Source: Microscillaceae bacterium (GTDB taxonomy: Bacteria > Bacteroidota > Bacteroidia > Cytophagales > Microscillaceae). From it: DNA of 62,580 nt. The notes under the pieces are model-generated. The model searched no databases and was not told where the DNA came from. It was given only the letters and a program-made list of their open reading frames with translations. The stretch is from positions 1-62,580 of the forward strand of contig JAABSX010000019.1 in the NCBI GenBank assembly GCA_011390205.1, written 5' to 3'. Shown here piece by piece: positions 991-58,782 of the stretch. Within the stretch, counting starts at the first letter, position 1; every line of letters begins with the position of its first letter. The translations under genes and the position numbers were made by a program.

Positions 991-2193
991 TTAGGCTTTT
1001 TCTAATTCACTGGGTTTTTCGTGCCCGATGGCACTTTTGTAGTTTACTGAGTCTATTACCATTTTGGCGATGATTTCACGCATGACCTCTGATGAGCCAC
1101 CACCAATCGTGCCTACACGGCTATCACGGAACATTCGAGCAATTTTGTAATCTTCTATAAAGCCGTACCCTCCAAACATTTGCAAGCACTTGTACATGAT
1201 CTGGTCTGAAAGCTCAGAAGCCATGAGTTTGGCCATAGAAGCCTCTTTGACAGCATATTTGCCATCATTGTGCATTCGGCAGACGTGATAGACGAAGTAT
1301 TTAGTCGCTTCTATTTCAGTCGCCATATCTGCGATTCGGTGTCGGAGGGCTTGAAATTTATTGATTTTTCGCCCAAAAGCCTCTCTTTCAGACATATATT
1401 GGAGTGTATATCCTAGGGCAAATTCGCAGGCACCTATCGCACCTGTAGCCCCGATGAGCCGCTCTAGCTGTAGCCCTCCCATGAGGTAATAAAATCCTTT
1501 ACCTTCTTCGCCAATCAGATTTTCGGCAGGTACTTTTACATTGTCAAAAAACAACTCGGCAGTATCCGAAGCGTGCCAGCCTAGTTTGTCGAGCTTATTG
1601 GCAGAGACCCCCTCGGCATTGCGGTCTATCACCAAAAGGCTAAAGCCTGCTGTGCCAGCCTCAGGTTTGGTTTTGACTACTGTAACCAGAAAATCTCCAT
1701 AAACCCCATTGGTGATGAATATTTTAGAGCCATTGACGATGTAGTGCTCTCCTTCACGCTTGGCAGTCGTGCGGATGCTTGCCACGTCTGAACCTGCATT
1801 AGGTTCGGTGATGGCGATGGAGGCAATCCATTCCCCTGCGATGGCTTTGGTCAGGTATTTTTGTTTTAAAAATTCACTCCCTACATTGGCTACATAGGTA
1901 ATGGCCATGTATTGGTGGGCTGTGGGGATGATAGAAAACCCACCCGAAAAACAGCGAGCAAGCTCTTCTTGAAATACTACAGAATACCAAAAGTCGGCAT
2001 TCATTCCTCCATATTCTTCGGGCAGGTTAATGCCCAAATAACCCATTTCTCCAAATTTCTTCCAGATTTCTTTGGGTACTTGTTGGTTCTTTTCCCATTC
2101 GTCTATGTGAGGGATGCATTCTTTTTCTAAAAACTGACGCAAGCCTTGTCTGAATAGCTCATGTTCTTCGGTAAAATAATAAGAATCTTTCAT
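991..2193 (-). CDS. acyl-CoA dehydrogenase
   Basis: This FAD flavoenzyme introduces the alpha-beta double bond into acyl-CoA during fatty-acid or branched-chain acyl breakdown. The 400 residues match the family length and show the N-terminal helical domain, the middle beta domain (AITEPNAGSD near 130) and the C-terminal helical domain (SEREAFGRKI near 270, then QMFGGYGFIEDY). The motif GGLQLERL near residue 244 holds the glutamate that serves as catalytic base in isovaleryl- and long-chain-type enzymes. The usual MCAD-type C-terminal glutamate position is glycine (GGGSSEVMREI), in keeping with that class. A close paralogue lies 190 bp upstream on the same strand. The exact substrate cannot be read from the sequence. 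Confidence 0.93.
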   Translation of the reverse strand: MKDSYYFTEEHELFRQGLRQFLEKECIPHIDEWEKNQQVPKEIWKKFGEMGYLGINLPEEYGGMNADFWYSVVFQEELARCFSGGFSIIPTAHQYMAITYVANVGSEFLKQKYLTKAIAGEWIASIAITEPNAGSDVASIRTTAKREGEHYIVNGSKIFITNGVYGDFLVTVVKTKPEAGTAGFSLLVIDRNAEGVSANKLDKLGWHASDTAELFFDNVKVPAENLIGEEGKGFYYLMGGLQLERLIGATGAIGACEFALGYTLQYMSEREAFGRKINKFQALRHRIADMATEIEATKYFVYHVCRMHNDGKYAVKEASMAKLMASELSDQIMYKCLQMFGGYGFIEDYKIARMFRDSRVGTIGGGSSEVMREIIAKMVIDSVNYKSAIGHEKPSELEKA

Positions 2194-2260
2194 TTTCCTG
2201 ATAATTTTTTAAGTGTATTTTAATTAAATGATGCTTCGTTTTATTGGATTGTCTAGCACT

Positions 2261-2284
2261 GGTTCAAGCGTCTTTGCTTGAACC
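2261..2284. repeat. 9-bp perfect hairpin between the two dehydrogenase genes
   Basis: GGTTCAAGC and GCTTGAACC are exact inverted copies around a six-base loop. No T-run follows on either strand, so it is not a standard intrinsic terminator. It lies in the leader of the downstream dehydrogenase gene and might be a processing or regulatory hairpin. Confidence 0.4.
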
Positions 2285-2383
2285 TCAAGACAAAAGAAAC
2301 ACGAAATCAAGCATTCTTGAGGGGGGAGATTATCTGAAAGTTTTTGTGATAAGCCTAAAACAACCTAAAGTCTATTTTAGGGC

Positions 2384-3547
2384 TCAAACTTTCTGATACT
2401 TCACCTCATCTATTACCATTTTAGCGATGATTTCACGCATAATCTCCGAAGAGCCTCCACCGATAGTGCCTATGCGGCTATCTCTAAACATTCTGGCGAT
2501 TTTATAATCTTCGATGAATCCATATCCCCCAAAAAACTGAAGGCATTTATAAATTGCTTGGTCGGCGAGTTCTGTGCTGAGAAGCTTTGCCATAGAAGCC
2601 TCTTTGACTACAGGTTTGCCATCTTGGTGCATTTTTGCGAGGTGATAGTTAAAATATTTGGCTCGGTATATCTCTGCAGACATATCCGCTATCCGATGCC
2701 TCAGTGCTTGAAATTGATTGATTCTTTTGCCAAAAGCCTGACGCTCAGACATATACTGCAGGGCGTGCTCCAACGCAAACTCTGCTGCACTTGCTCCGCC
2801 AATCGCCATCATGAGCCGCTCTAGCTGGAATCTCCCCATGATGTAATAAAAGCCATGGCCTTCTTTGCCGATGAGGTGCTCGGCAGGTACACGTACATCT
2901 ACGAAGGAAATTTCTCCTGTATCCGAAGCATGCCAGCCCAGTTTATTGAGTTTCGTGGCCGATACTCCAGGCGTATCTCGGTCTATCACGATGAGGCTCA
3001 TGCCTCCTGCTCCTGCTTCAGGATTGGTTTTGACGGCTGCCACGATGTAATCACTCAGTACGCCATTGGTGATAAAAGTTTTAGAACCATTGATGACATA
3101 ATGTTCTCCTTCTCGCTTGGCTACAGTGCGGATATTTGCCACATCTGAGCCTGCATTGGGCTCGCTAATAGCCAAAGCACCTATCCACTCTCCTGAGATG
3201 CTTTTTGGTAAATATTTATCTTTGAGATAGTTACTGCCCGATGCCAAGATATGTGCCCCAGCCATATAAGGCGTGATGCCCACAGCAGCCCCGAACCCAC
3301 CACTGTTTACTCGGAGGGTTTCTTCTTGGAATACCACTGTATAAAAAAAATCAACATTGCTTCCTCCATATTTCTCAGGGTGATTCAAGCCTAAATAACC
3401 CATTTCGCCCATTTTTTTCCAGATATACTTTGGGATTTCGCCTGCTTTCTCCCATTCATCTATGTTTGGGATGACTTCTTTGGCATAAAACTGACGCAGC
3501 CCCTGCCTGAACAGTTCGTGCTCTTCACTAAAATAATACTCATTCAT
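2384..3547 (-). CDS. acyl-CoA dehydrogenase (paralogue of the neighbouring gene)
   Basis: This is a second FAD-dependent acyl-CoA dehydrogenase of 387 residues. It has the same landmarks as its neighbour: ALAISEPNAGSD, GRFQLERL with the probable catalytic glutamate, MSERQAFGKRI, FFGGYGFIEDY and GGGSSEIMREIIAKMV. The N-terminus (FSEEHELFRQGLRQF) and the last 150 residues are almost the same in the two proteins, while the middle differs more. This points to tandem duplication followed by divergence. The ATG at 3547 is preferred over another ATG 4 bases downstream in a different frame because it opens the conserved N-terminus. The pair could be cotranscribed despite the 190-bp gap. Confidence 0.93.
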   Translation of the reverse strand: MNEYYFSEEHELFRQGLRQFYAKEVIPNIDEWEKAGEIPKYIWKKMGEMGYLGLNHPEKYGGSNVDFFYTVVFQEETLRVNSGGFGAAVGITPYMAGAHILASGSNYLKDKYLPKSISGEWIGALAISEPNAGSDVANIRTVAKREGEHYVINGSKTFITNGVLSDYIVAAVKTNPEAGAGGMSLIVIDRDTPGVSATKLNKLGWHASDTGEISFVDVRVPAEHLIGKEGHGFYYIMGRFQLERLMMAIGGASAAEFALEHALQYMSERQAFGKRINQFQALRHRIADMSAEIYRAKYFNYHLAKMHQDGKPVVKEASMAKLLSTELADQAIYKCLQFFGGYGFIEDYKIARMFRDSRIGTIGGGSSEIMREIIAKMVIDEVKYQKV

Positions 3548-13860: not shown

Positions 13861-15283
13861 ATCTCAAAATCCAGTCTTTGGGTGTAAAAGTATCTGTTTC
13901 TTTCATCAAATCTATCTGCGGGTCTATGAGCAGCTTGCTAGGTCTGCCATTCAGGGTTACATAAATCTCAGCACGCACTTCGGGTTGATAAACGCCCTTT
14001 GTTTCATAATGCTTTCCTAAAAAATGTGCAAATTGTAAAATCATATCGGGCTGCATTGCCATTTGTTTTTCTTGGTGTGGATTGAGAAATTCTGAGTTAT
14101 CTACCACTCCTTCTCTGCCTGTTTTGGTGTCTTTTATATAAAAAGTAGCCGTGCCTGCTTTTTCCATGAGCATCACCCTCCACGAATGGCGGTAGCCTTC
14201 TTCTGTCCAGAATAAATTTCCTTCATACAACAAATACCGCCATGGGAATAAGACCTGAAAAGCAAAAAAGCAAATGAGAAGCAGCCCCCCAGCCCCCAAA
14301 GGGAGGGTTGGGGTAGGGTCTGCTCCCCCTTCGGGGGTCGGGGGGCTGCTAGGAATCAAAAAAATGACTGTAGCCCCAATCATCACCCATGGAAAAATAC
14401 CAATCTGGAAGAGCAAGCCCGTGAGGCTATGAAAAACAATGACTGTAAAATAAGCAAACCACTTGGTAGGTCGCCAAGCTAAGAAAAATACAATCGTGCA
14501 GTCATACAGCATCCCAAACCAAGAGAATACATAAGGTGTGATTTGCCAAGTAAAGATTTCCCCAATCAAGGGCATAGTGTCATGGGCGGGCAGCCATATT
14601 TTGAGGGGCAAGGCAAGGATGAGCCAGTCATAAGTGATTTTTGCCAAACCTGCATACACATACACAATCGCTATTTGAAATTTGAATATCAGAATCGCCC
14701 AGTGAGGAATGAGCAGTCCTTTCACCCACAGCCCCCTAAGCCCAGCCCCCCAGCCCCCAAAGGGGGAGTCAGACTCCACCCCAACCCTTCCCTCAGGGGA
14801 GGGGGCTGGGGGGCTTGGGTTTGGCACTAAACACAGCAGAAAACAAACCAAACTGACAAAATAATAATGATTGAGGTAGTAGGTCAGGTCAATCAGCTCG
14901 GTGTAGGTGAAGGCCAAAAAGAGTAACACGGCAGAGATTTTATACAGAAATCCTCTAGCAAACATCACCCCTAGAGCAGCCACAATCATCAGATAATGAA
15001 CCACATAAAGCCAAAAAACGGGCAAGGGCTTTACCCATGAAAAGCCCCAGTATTTAAAATGAAACAAGGGCTGGACATAGTGATCTTCTATCCAGCCCAA
15101 TGTCATAAAACGAACAGTACCAAAAATCATCAATGCCCCAAAGATAATCTTGAAGACAATCAGCGGCGTAGCACTCACAGGTTTTTGCAAATCATCCAGA
15201 AGTGAATTTTTATCGTGAAAATACTGGAATAGGCTACTTTGCTTGCTTGTTTTTTGGTGTGCCGTTTTTTCTTTAATCGCCAT
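13844..15283 (-). CDS. HTTM-domain integral membrane protein with two repeat-derived inserts
   Basis: HTTM proteins have a horizontally transferred transmembrane domain related to vitamin K-dependent gamma-carboxylase. This 479-residue protein has many membrane segments (for example VFWLYVVHYLMIVAALGVMF and AVLLFLAFTYTELIDLTYYL) and a soluble C-terminal tail of about 120 residues. Two Pro/Gly-rich inserts, at about residues 155-181 and 312-335, come from GC-rich palindromic repeats and keep the frame open. The ATG at 15283 is chosen over a TTG at 15307; it overlaps the end of the imelysin-like gene by 11 bases. The TonB receptor start overlaps its own stop. Its job in metal uptake is unknown. 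Confidence 0.85.
   Translation of the reverse strand: MAIKEKTAHQKTSKQSSLFQYFHDKNSLLDDLQKPVSATPLIVFKIIFGALMIFGTVRFMTLGWIEDHYVQPLFHFKYWGFSWVKPLPVFWLYVVHYLMIVAALGVMFARGFLYKISAVLLFLAFTYTELIDLTYYLNHYYFVSLVCFLLCLVPNPSPPAPSPEGRVGVESDSPFGGWGAGLRGLWVKGLLIPHWAILIFKFQIAIVYVYAGLAKITYDWLILALPLKIWLPAHDTMPLIGEIFTWQITPYVFSWFGMLYDCTIVFFLAWRPTKWFAYFTVIVFHSLTGLLFQIGIFPWVMIGATVIFLIPSSPPTPEGGADPTPTLPLGAGGLLLICFFAFQVLFPWRYLLYEGNLFWTEEGYRHSWRVMLMEKAGTATFYIKDTKTGREGVVDNSEFLNPHQEKQMAMQPDMILQFAHFLGKHYETKGVYQPEVRAEIYVTLNGRPSKLLIDPQIDLMKETDTFTPKDWILRYEDED
14280..14350 (+). repeat. GC-rich palindromic repeat, copy A, inside the HTTM gene
   Basis: A 71-bp element with perfect 11-bp ends AGCAGCCCCCC and GGGGGGCTGCT. Its core (GGGAGGGTTGGGGTAGGGTC) matches the reverse complement of copy B, so the two copies point in opposite directions. 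Translated in the gene frame it gives SSPPTPEGGADPTPTLPLG. Such short palindromes that invade genes in frame resemble REP- or MITE-type elements. Confidence 0.8.
14741..14819 (-). repeat. GC-rich palindromic repeat, copy B, inside the HTTM gene
   Basis: A 79-bp element bounded by CCCAGCCCCCCAGCCCCC and its near-complement at the other end. It shares the core and flanking C-tracts with copy A in opposite orientation. In the gene frame it is read as NPSPPAPSPEGRVGVESD and so on, placed between two membrane segments of the HTTM protein. Confidence 0.8.
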
Positions 15284-27546: not shown

Positions 27547-29793
27547 ATGAAACAACACATCATCCCATTTTTATTGCTGGCAATAACACTGGCAGCCTCA
27601 CAAGGGCAGGCCCAAAAACTAAGGATAGAAACACAGGAAAGCCAAAAATTTATCATCCATAAGGTACAAGCAAAAGAAACATTGTGGGGAATCACACACA
27701 CCTATGATGTGAGCCAAGAAGAACTTGTAAAATACAACCAAGACATAGACAAAGGATTAAAAACAGGTACAGAAATCAGAATTCCTTATACAGAACCTGA
27801 TAACCCCAAACTACAAACCCAAAATACCACTCTAGAAGCTACCAATATATCTATCAAACACACTGTAGCCAAAGGAGAATGGCTCACCAAAATCGCCAAG
27901 GAATATGAAGTGTCTGTTGATGAATTAAAAAAATGGAATGCCTTAGATGGTGAAAAAATCACACCTGGACAAGAACTTATCGTAGGCATAGGCAAAAGTA
28001 AATCTCCTGATAAAAACCATGTAAGCCAGGGTGAATTGGCAAGTAAGACAGACAAAAAGAAAGATACAAAAGGCGAGGTACTCAAAACACAATCCCCTGA
28101 CAATCTGCAGATACACGTAGTACAGCCTAAAGAAACACTTGCAGCCCTCAAGAGAGCTTACAATGTGAGTGTGGCAGATATTAAAGAATGGAATGCACTC
28201 GATAATGACATCATCAATGTAGGGCAAAAATTGAAAATTTATAGTGATACCAAACCCCAAGTAGCTGTTACTAGCCAAGAAACAGGCTTCGAGTGGCTCA
28301 AAGATACACCCGCAGCAAATACACAGACAAATAACCCTACTACTACCACTACAGTGGCTGCTACCAATACGACCCCAGCAAGCACAGCCGCCAGTAACTT
28401 AGACCCTTTTGCTGCACTCAATGATGCAGAGCCTACTGCTATAGGTACAACCCAGCAAAGCCCTAGTCGAGGAGATGTGAACCCACAAATCTATACACAA
28501 ACTCTTATAGCTCCTTTGCAGATACCTGTAACAGACGGAATGACCATCTACAAGCTTCAAAACCAATACAATGTACGTAAGACAGAAATCCGATATTGGA
28601 ACGATATGCCTCCTACTAGTAATGCACTTTCAGTAGGAAAAATGCTTAAAATCTATCCGCCTAAGCAGATATTTCACAAAGTAATGGCAGGCGAAACACT
28701 TGCTTCTATAGCCCAAAAATATGATGTCAATGTAAGACAAATGGAAATCTGGAATGATTTCCAGCAGAATCAGGGAGAACAGAAAAAACAAGTGGGGCAA
28801 AACCTTGTCGTTTTTCAGCGAACAGGTCCTAAACCCACACCTGAGTTTGAAACAGCAGCCAGAGAGGAGGTAGCTACTACCAATGTAGTGCAGCAGCAGC
28901 AGCCCGCCTATCAGCAACAACCCGCCTATCAACAGCAACCTGTGCAGCAGCAACAGCCTAGCTTTACACTGCATACCGTAGCACAAGGCGAGTATTTATT
29001 TGATATTGCACAGAAATATGACAATGTACAGGTGAGAGATATTAAAGAGTGGAATAGCCTACCAGCAGTAGGTAACCCCGTAGCGGGTACACAGCTACGC
29101 ATTTATAAAGTAGCAAGTAGCCAGCAAAGCAGCAACACCCAAAATACAGCGCAATCTTATAACCAAAATAACGGACAGGATATGAGAGGGAGCTCAAATA
29201 CAAATACAAACAGTAATTTATATGCGAACCCTTATGATACTGGTTATAATGCTGGAAATAATCAGTCTGGTAGCACAAGCACGGGCGGTTACAACAGTGG
29301 TACGACCACGGGCGGTTACAACAGTGGTACGACCACAGGCGGTTACAACAGTGGTACGACCACGGGCGGTTACAACAGTGGTACGACCACAGGCGGTTAC
29401 AACAGTGGCGCAAGCACAGGAAATCCTTTTGGAGACTCAGGGTATCAGAGCAATACAGACAAATACCTAAATAACAACAACTCCAATTTAAACACCACCG
29501 AAAGTGCAGCAGAGGGAGTCAATGTAACAGAAGAAGGATACGCCGATGTTTCAAGCATCCCTAGTGGAAAACCTTTTGTAGCTTTGCACAGAACACTGCC
29601 TGTAGGCACCATGGTAATCATGAAAAATCTAATGACTGGTGCAAGTGTAGTCGTGGAGGTAGTAGCGAGTATGAACCCTAGCAGCGCCAAAGCTGGAGTG
29701 GTTATAGAAGTTACCAATGCCGTTTTCTCAAGGCTAGGAGCAGTGTCAGGAAAGTTGCTAAATGTAGAATTGAGTTACAACATCAAAAAATAA
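27547..29793 (+). CDS. multi-LysM protein with C-terminal DPBB (RlpA-like) domain
   Basis: This 748-residue exported protein begins with a signal peptide ending GQA-QK. It carries five good LysM domains (about 35-82, 98-145, 195-240, 375-425 and 475-525) and a weaker sixth (about 330-370), all of which bind peptidoglycan. Gln-rich (about 438-470) and Thr/Ser-rich linkers separate them. A run of five GGYNSGTTT repeats follows (about 580-624). The C-terminal 80 residues (KPFVALHRTLPVGTMVIMKN) form an RlpA-like double-psi beta-barrel. The aspartate-histidine site of lytic RlpA is not obvious, so it may bind rather than cut glycan. It lies 18 bp after the DUF4905 gene and ends at a terminator. 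Confidence 0.9.
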   Translation: MKQHIIPFLLLAITLAASQGQAQKLRIETQESQKFIIHKVQAKETLWGITHTYDVSQEELVKYNQDIDKGLKTGTEIRIPYTEPDNPKLQTQNTTLEATNISIKHTVAKGEWLTKIAKEYEVSVDELKKWNALDGEKITPGQELIVGIGKSKSPDKNHVSQGELASKTDKKKDTKGEVLKTQSPDNLQIHVVQPKETLAALKRAYNVSVADIKEWNALDNDIINVGQKLKIYSDTKPQVAVTSQETGFEWLKDTPAANTQTNNPTTTTTVAATNTTPASTAASNLDPFAALNDAEPTAIGTTQQSPSRGDVNPQIYTQTLIAPLQIPVTDGMTIYKLQNQYNVRKTEIRYWNDMPPTSNALSVGKMLKIYPPKQIFHKVMAGETLASIAQKYDVNVRQMEIWNDFQQNQGEQKKQVGQNLVVFQRTGPKPTPEFETAAREEVATTNVVQQQQPAYQQQPAYQQQPVQQQQPSFTLHTVAQGEYLFDIAQKYDNVQVRDIKEWNSLPAVGNPVAGTQLRIYKVASSQQSSNTQNTAQSYNQNNGQDMRGSSNTNTNSNLYANPYDTGYNAGNNQSGSTSTGGYNSGTTTGGYNSGTTTGGYNSGTTTGGYNSGTTTGGYNSGASTGNPFGDSGYQSNTDKYLNNNNSNLNTTESAAEGVNVTEEGYADVSSIPSGKPFVALHRTLPVGTMVIMKNLMTGASVVVEVVASMNPSSAKAGVVIEVTNAVFSRLGAVSGKLLNVELSYNIKK
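29284..29418 (+). repeat. 27-bp minisatellite encoding GGYNSGTTT
   Basis: Five almost identical tandem copies of a 27-bp unit (GGCGGTTACAACAGTGGTAC and seven more bases). The last copy has diverged at its 3' end (GGCGCAAGCACA). The unit is a multiple of three, so gain or loss keeps the frame; it forms a flexible linker of the LysM protein. Confidence 0.9.
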
Positions 29794-58623: not shown

Positions 58624-58720
58624 TTGTCATGCCGTAGGCATCTGCTGTACTGCATAGCTTTTTTACATAGTATTTATCTACTGCCTTTAGACACGTCTTC
58701 AGATACCTACGGCATGACAA
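58624..58720. repeat. 97-bp inverted-repeat element in the 341-bp spacer
   Basis: Arms of about 21 bp (TTGTCATGCCGTAGGCATCT and its near-complement starting at 58700) with one mismatch enclose a spacer of 55 bases. The TGTCATGCCGTAGG ends resemble those of small non-coding palindromic elements. It may be a MITE- or REP-like unit. Confidence 0.65.
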
Positions 58721-58758: not shown

Positions 58759-58782
58759 CTCCTTTTGGGGCTAGGGGGCTTC
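58759..58782 (+). repeat. partial copy of the GC-rich palindromic repeat
   Basis: The segment with TTTTGGGGCTAGGGGGCTT matches the end of the repeats inside the HTTM gene (CTTTGGGGGCTGGGGGGCTG in copy B). Only one arm is seen, 16 bases before the decayed lipoprotein gene. Confidence 0.45.

Follow-up and report, generated by a model that had tools for sequence, protein, structure and literature searches.

Protein-coding palindromes are reportedly a peculiarity of Rickettsia, and Vsr-like homing endonucleases are represented by I-Bth0305I, which is located in an intron. As far as the articles are drawn on here, palindromes read in frame are already known in Rickettsia and in other MITEs. The Rickettsia palindromic elements (RPE), of ~105–150 bp, are translated within a wide range of conserved protein genes that are unrelated to one another, and the cited sections name no mover for them (PMC10969869, PMC2229807). 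The short inverted-repeat elements ERIC/RU-1, YPAL/RU-2 and Correia include open frames fused to genes, and one MITE fusion forms part of a signal peptide (PMC2229807, sections on these elements). REP, BIME and REPIN sequences are small hairpins that form inverted doublets, reach high copy number and in some cases lie inside ORFs (PMC3733652, in the part cited).

Here we analyse a window of 62,580 nucleotides, the whole of one contig in a 124-contig assembly of a Microscillaceae bacterium (genome G000), in which two such palindromes, A and B, are translated within a single gene. By description, and within the cited sections, they resemble the RPE in lying in frame in unrelated conserved genes and in belonging to a multi-copy family. 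They differ in phylum, in being GC-rich and built of three hairpins, in the slightly smaller size of the complete element, and in the existence of a nuclease-bearing in-frame long form in Bacteroidota, none being named for the RPE in the sections cited (PMC10969869, PMC2229807). The in-frame reading recalls the enterobacterial, Yersinia and Neisseria MITEs as far as these are covered in the sections drawn on; ERIC/RU-1, YPAL/RU-2 and Correia nevertheless appear to be other sequences, and in one relative, G007, several copies of the present element occupy likely signal peptides ahead of the cleavage region. The hairpins, inverted doublets, high copy number and partial location in ORFs are shared with REP, BIME and REPIN as portrayed in the cited part of PMC3733652, but the unit lacks the GTAG/CGTC tag of most REPs on both strands and none lies beside the intact RAYT of G000. 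A and B are probably non-autonomous copies of a Bacteroidota in-frame, hairpin-ended element whose long form carries a homing-like DUF559 nuclease.

Two opposite palindromes are translated within an HTTM gene

The reading frame of a 487-codon ORF (Table 1), which starts at TTG and has an in-frame ATG at 15283, is continuous across both palindromes. These match each other at 81% on opposite strands, bearing out the earlier note's view of two opposite copies in one membrane-protein gene, and each has a GC content of 73% against 40% for the window. Profile searches assign the product to PF05090 (E = 7.6e-61) and PF22777 (E = 1.6e-58), and human VKGC structures match it in three aligned blocks, the breaks between which are loops A and B. 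In the protein model (pLDDT 82) the segments encoded by A (SSPPTPEGGADPTPTLPLGAGGLL on the gene strand) and B (NPSPPAPSPEGRVGVESDSPFGGWGAGLRGL) are of low confidence, mostly coil and positioned between helices. The earlier note described Pro/Gly-rich segments added between membrane helices; in the orthologue alignment they replace part of variable loops and do not simply lengthen them.

Table 1. Positions of the host gene, the two elements and the palindrome units in the window.
Feature	Position	Strand	Basis
Host gene, HTTM domain and VKGC-lumenal-like domain, 487 aa	13844..15307	-	ORF, profile matches, structure matches, model
Element A, 71 bp, in frame, taken as an internally deleted copy of the 92–96-bp element	14280..14350	+	alignment, folding
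Left unit of A (AGCCCCCCAGCCCCCAAAGGGA, 1 mismatch)	14283..14304	+	unit scan
Inverted right unit of A (AGCCCCCCGACCCCCGAAGGGG, 2 mismatches)	14326..14347	-	unit scan
Element B plus short flanks, read in frame and oriented against A; a hairpin apparently gone through a 22-bp deletion	14735..14823 (about)	-	alignment, folding
Intact unit of B (AGCCCCCCAGCCCCCAAAGGGG, exact)	14744..14765	+	unit scan
Third window unit: solitary, degenerate, intergenic	58759..58780	-	unit scan

For comparison with relatives, the products of sixteen orthologous genes were aligned and the genes themselves scanned for the unit. None of the 16 contains it, even allowing 5 mismatches, and their loops vary in length and sequence, the A and B segments substituting for part of them. 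Among relatives, the most evident stretch of Pro residues is APPPP at site B in G005, and plain CCACCTCCACCT-type DNA encodes it. Relatives do not supply the picture of matching Pro-rich loops made from unrelated DNA that would speak against insertion. We infer that the inserts are neutral for the HTTM protein; A and B would have been kept because the loops tolerate them. The corresponding loop A of G007 carries a pair of in-frame palindromes, one resembling the middle hairpin of the element, which lends partial support to the suggestion of a hot spot. The G009 orthologue (L045) has a frame change inside loop A, where it has no palindrome, and this is either real or an assembly error.

A complete short copy measures 92–96 bp and comprises a left C-rich unit, a middle hairpin and an inverted right unit, the hairpin of the C-rich unit being AGCCCCC-YAR-CCCCC-RAA-GGGGG. 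Two complete G000 copies served as references, L093:3632-3727 (96 bp) and L096:2078-2169 (92 bp, within an RND-pump gene). B aligns best in the minus orientation (99.4 on L093 and 90.0 on L096, against 64.5 and 67.7 in plus). A aligns in plus on L096 (85.2 against 44.0), with near-equal scores on L093 (71.3 plus, 72.9 minus). Relative to L093 and in the chosen orientations, A is short by 28+3 bp and B by 22+2 bp. Judging from these alignments, we take A and B to be opposite, separately shortened copies of one palindromic element. The length of 71 bp given earlier for A is correct; B, put at 79 bp, is nearer 85–90 bp with its ends, and carries an extra half unit at ~14729–14743. Folding gives z-scores of -2.67 for A and -4.64 for B, and the core hairpin pattern is matched at 11 places in the window, where 100 shuffles gave 2.1 on average and 7 at most.

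With terminal inverted repeats and no gene of their own, the short copies have the make-up of MITEs. The unit is stop-free in four of its six frames, and in all six with CCA in place of CTA; since most frames are open, an insertion whose length suits the frame is read as a linker rich in Pro and Gly. Close to the solitary unit at 58759, a second palindrome family occupies window positions 58624–58720 (TTGTCATGCCGTAGGCATCTG with an inverted partner 55 bp on), and the TTGTCATGCCGTAGGCATCTG motif also adjoins units in L073.

The palindrome is multi-copy and frequently read in frame

Scanning with the unit AGCCCCCNAGCCCCCNAAGGGG (up to 3 mismatches) gave 71 matches in G000 against 6 for a reversed control. 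Across 37 genomes of the same order, G000 included, matches are concentrated in five (G007, 424; G002, 117; G033, 89; G004, 78; G000, 71), the other 32 having 0–6 each. In a scan of named genomes the unit was found in at least 118 stretches, at least 111 of them from Bacteroidota, at least 3 unplaced and at least 4 from other phyla, several of these non-Bacteroidota stretches being metagenome bins that may be misbinned. The family is present in sequenced strains such as Marivirga aurantiaca, Flavobacterium cucumis and F. frigidimaris. Viral contigs, scanned for units and frames, contributed 27 stretches with the unit.

Copies were counted as spanned in frame where an ORF has at least 130 aa outside the copy. 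By this measure 14 of 53 clusters in G000 are spanned, 21 of 50 in a G007 sample, 11 of 46 in viral contigs and, among the matches listed, 67 of 148 in the named loci, a set that probably overlaps G007 through some contigs. The G007 sample comprises 30 exact-match loci and 20 further stretches out of the 424 matches, its exact-match part being tilted towards the CCA variant. Besides the HTTM gene, in-frame copies in G000 lie in genes for the RND pump, a Type ISP enzyme (two copies), an Eco57I-type enzyme, an MmeI-type N-terminal domain, an FGE-sulfatase protein and HypD, the last copy forming a C-terminal tail past the end of the solved homologue. The G000 AlaRS, which has a degenerate unit in frame, is counted as doubtful because it is merely 2 residues longer there than its relatives. 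The AlaRS of G004 (L193) has an in-frame hairpin, CCCCTCTCAACAGGAGAGGGG (SPLSTGEG), at a place where additional residues occur in G000 too, and that of G002 (L206) has an in-frame insert of ~85 aa absent from the other aligned family members, within which no DUF559 or unit was noticed.

Genes are under-represented among the sites occupied: open frames extend for 60 or more codons to either side of 47 of 137 copies, compared with 645 of 1170 random stretches. Copies at such depth are mostly read through (7:3, 8:4 and 47:14 in three sets, the copies not read through including tight operon gaps and missing decayed genes), where length alone would be expected to keep the frame in ~1 in 3. The element is retained in frame in unrelated conserved protein genes. 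The earlier description of a palindrome that tolerates translation is borne out for this multi-copy family, and calling this uncommon was too strong, in-frame copies being frequent in the family.

Some copies near a start codon (for example HypF in L076 and PurK in L089) may sit in the 5' leader. Within the first 60 aa of ORFs, the G007 sample has 11 copies against 3.2 expected, 7 of them preceded by a hydrophobic stretch, and several G007 copies follow the hydrophobic core of a likely signal peptide and precede its cleavage region. In these the unit-encoded peptide may largely be cleaved off, given its closeness to the cleavage region. A signal-peptide hot spot is not a general feature, being strong in the G007 sample alone and absent elsewhere (G000, 3 against 2.3 expected; named loci, 9 against 7.7; viral contigs, 0 against 2.5). 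The likely signal peptides with a unit near the cleavage region are in G007 loci L150, L154, L155, L160, L162, L168, L186 and L187, one example reading LLYLWIF[SPFGGWGAF]AQTT.

A long form encloses a Vsr-like nuclease in frame

In a longer version of the element, ~115 codons of a DUF559 nuclease (Vsr-like, PD-(D/E)XK) are enclosed by inverted hairpin arms and lie in frame with the host gene. Such inserts occur in MetH of Marivirga aurantiaca, Flavobacterium frigidimaris, F. cucumis, Lutibacter and others, in ValRS of a Prevotellaceae bin and in LeuRS of Aequorivita todarodis. Among the 118 listed unit loci, all 10 distinct DUF559 matches are within ORFs of 751–1456 aa, and a unit lies within 45 bp on both sides in 8 and on one side in 2. 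These loci were chosen by the unit, so that some unit nearby is expected by construction, but the tight bracketing is not. A unit-independent search of the 37 genomes with PF04480 yielded 26 loci in 18 genomes, several of them within LeuRS, Eco57I-type, DNA methylase and Type ISP genes. With the unit loci included, the DUF559 hosts are MetH, LeuRS, ValRS, Type ISP and Eco57I-type enzymes and a DNA methylase. At 15 of the 25 loci with enough flank, two of which (L358 and L360) are near-identical, inverted hairpin arms score above the best of 40 block shuffles; at the other 10 no such arms were found.

The inserts stand out against solved homologues, with 141 residues against 15 in MetH and 167 against 6 in LeuRS; the MetH host L242 scores 1951 against an NCBIfam cut-off of 1497, an indirect hint that such host proteins may stay functional. 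The nuclease was modelled at a pLDDT of 87.6, and its fold matches include NGO0050 (3hrl; Z 15.1), I-Bth0305I (Z 11.5) and Vsr (Z 10.2). Across 24 sequences the core residues D52, E63, D65 and H69 do not vary. A homing-type fold with a conserved core is thus a property of the long form and not of A and B. The likeness to I-Bth0305I extends from the catalytic fold to the use of recurrent sites in conserved genes. The differences are the palindromic arms and the splicing context: no intein family was among the listed matches (E up to 1e-5) in the host proteins examined, and no intron family was detected in the 10 sources scanned. The Bacteroidota nuclease insert stays in frame and is presumably kept in the host protein. 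We found no description of a nuclease-bearing in-frame element in the open-licence literature searched, which is weak as evidence of absence.

At several conserved sites, long and nuclease-less forms occupy the same position. The Type ISP enzyme has the nuclease ahead of (I)FHYVYGVLHNPAYR in G019 and hairpins only in G000 and L251; in the MetH linker, the nuclease is present in L242, L278, L311 and L315 and hairpins only in L243 and at one place of L257; at LeuRS site 2, the nuclease is present in L359 and L376 and hairpins only in L354. ValRS has the nuclease before ATxRPETIMGD in L261 and lacks it there in L246, a host identified by sequence only. Recurrent insertion at the same conserved site is the behaviour expected of homing. 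Part of the sharing in MetH may be old inheritance and not repeated homing, because the 8 MetH nucleases form one tree group with moderate support (90/81). One Flavobacterium MetH (L307:1-3225, minus strand) carries two DUF559 inserts, in the linker and in the activation domain. In phage records, one DUF559 query matched 3 of 50,697, at less than 60% identity.

Proposed relation of A and B to the nuclease-bearing form

The probable placement of A and B among the nuclease-less copies of this element suggests a route by which they came to lie in the HTTM gene. The nuclease would cut an empty host site in the manner of a homing endonuclease, and repair would then copy the element into the cut site. 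Nuclease-less copies would arise by deletion or be moved in trans, and selection would retain those that sit in tolerant loops without breaking the frame. We infer on these grounds that A and B may descend from a nuclease-bearing lineage. More tentatively, the family may constitute a splicing-free class of mobile element, in which the arms and the Vsr-like nuclease are translated as an extra domain and remnants such as A and B persist as linkers.

If so, the element may hide by being translated, spreading through Bacteroidota inside conserved enzymes, and recurring Pro/Gly-rich inserts in Bacteroidota proteins (SPLTPEGG, PPSGAGGL, SPFGGWGA) would be explained as translated mobile DNA. Translated palindromes are common here in a second phylum, with a candidate mover attached, and the presence of both in named Flavobacterium and Marivirga strains makes the way in which selfish palindromes enter proteins directly testable.

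A rather unlikely alternative is that the palindromes are independent selfish elements, with DUF559 captured between copies or homing into palindrome sites, which would leave A and B unconnected to the nuclease. Two unit-rich genomes, G000 and G007, the latter with the most copies of all, give no PF04480 match, and of 57 convergent unit pairs in the listed named loci 49 span 62–237 bp and are nuclease-less, 4 having the nuclease size of 420–437 bp. Set against this, the arms are alike within a locus (37 of 38 bases in L354) and belong to different families at different loci, and the hairpin that brackets the LeuRS nuclease of G004 is a family amplified there alone, with 103 copies in G004 and none in the other 36 genomes. 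Less favourable to a link with the nuclease, the G033 arm has 12 copies in G033 but 16 in G004, and the bracketing hairpin of G005 and G001 occurs almost nowhere outside the host gene. The number of nucleases was also considered as an explanation of copy number and rejected: unit-rich G000 and G007 are without a DUF559 match, and G005, G019 and G032, with two or three DUF559 loci each, have 0–1 unit matches, so copy number does not track the nuclease. On the preferred reading, in which A and B derive from the nuclease-bearing element, the absence of a PF04480 match in G000 and G007 would mean that their mover was lost, has diverged or is something else.

A RAYT (REP-associated tyrosine transposase), the mover that the earlier note had proposed looking for, is an improbable agent here, and so is membership of the units in the REP/REPIN type. 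The pairs of hairpins in opposite orientation do look like REP doublets, a RAYT is encoded in G000 (NF047646, scoring 86.8 bits where the cut-off is 80), Y1_Tnp occurs in 27 of the 37 genomes, and a broken Y1_Tnp remnant on contig C11 has one unit 1.8 kb away. The intact G000 gene is, however, flanked by other repeats, with no unit in its 7-kb locus, and units were found in 1 of 20 further Y1_Tnp regions (in G004: two, at least 1.7 kb from the genes). The tag common to most REPs, as given in the cited part of PMC3733652, is absent as noted above. Linkage of the unit to RAYT was rejected on the strength of these flanks, the single proximity to the remnant notwithstanding. The G000 RAYT is flanked by REPs of its own (AAGTCTGAGCGAAGCG... 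and CCAGTCTTCAGACTGG), and downstream of it (L078:4020-4640, on contig C47) ~240 bp are repeated nearly exactly ~370 bp further on.

The notion of old Pro-rich protein loops with palindrome-like DNA by chance, which could draw on the variability of these loops among orthologues, is refuted by the intergenic copies, the DNA itself matching dozens of genome copies that lie mostly outside genes and the orthologous genes being free of the unit. An assembly or binning artefact of the draft genome is just as hard to credit: repeats do break assemblies, and the window is one whole contig of 124, but the copies lie mid-contig, differ in sequence and have family members in the sequenced Marivirga and Flavobacterium strains.

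Two further repeats were observed in the window. A tandem duplication at 1052–3538 has a spacing of 1357 bp and a block identity of 72–78%, and several copies of a 27-bp tandem repeat lie at 29243–29420, in a likely coding region.
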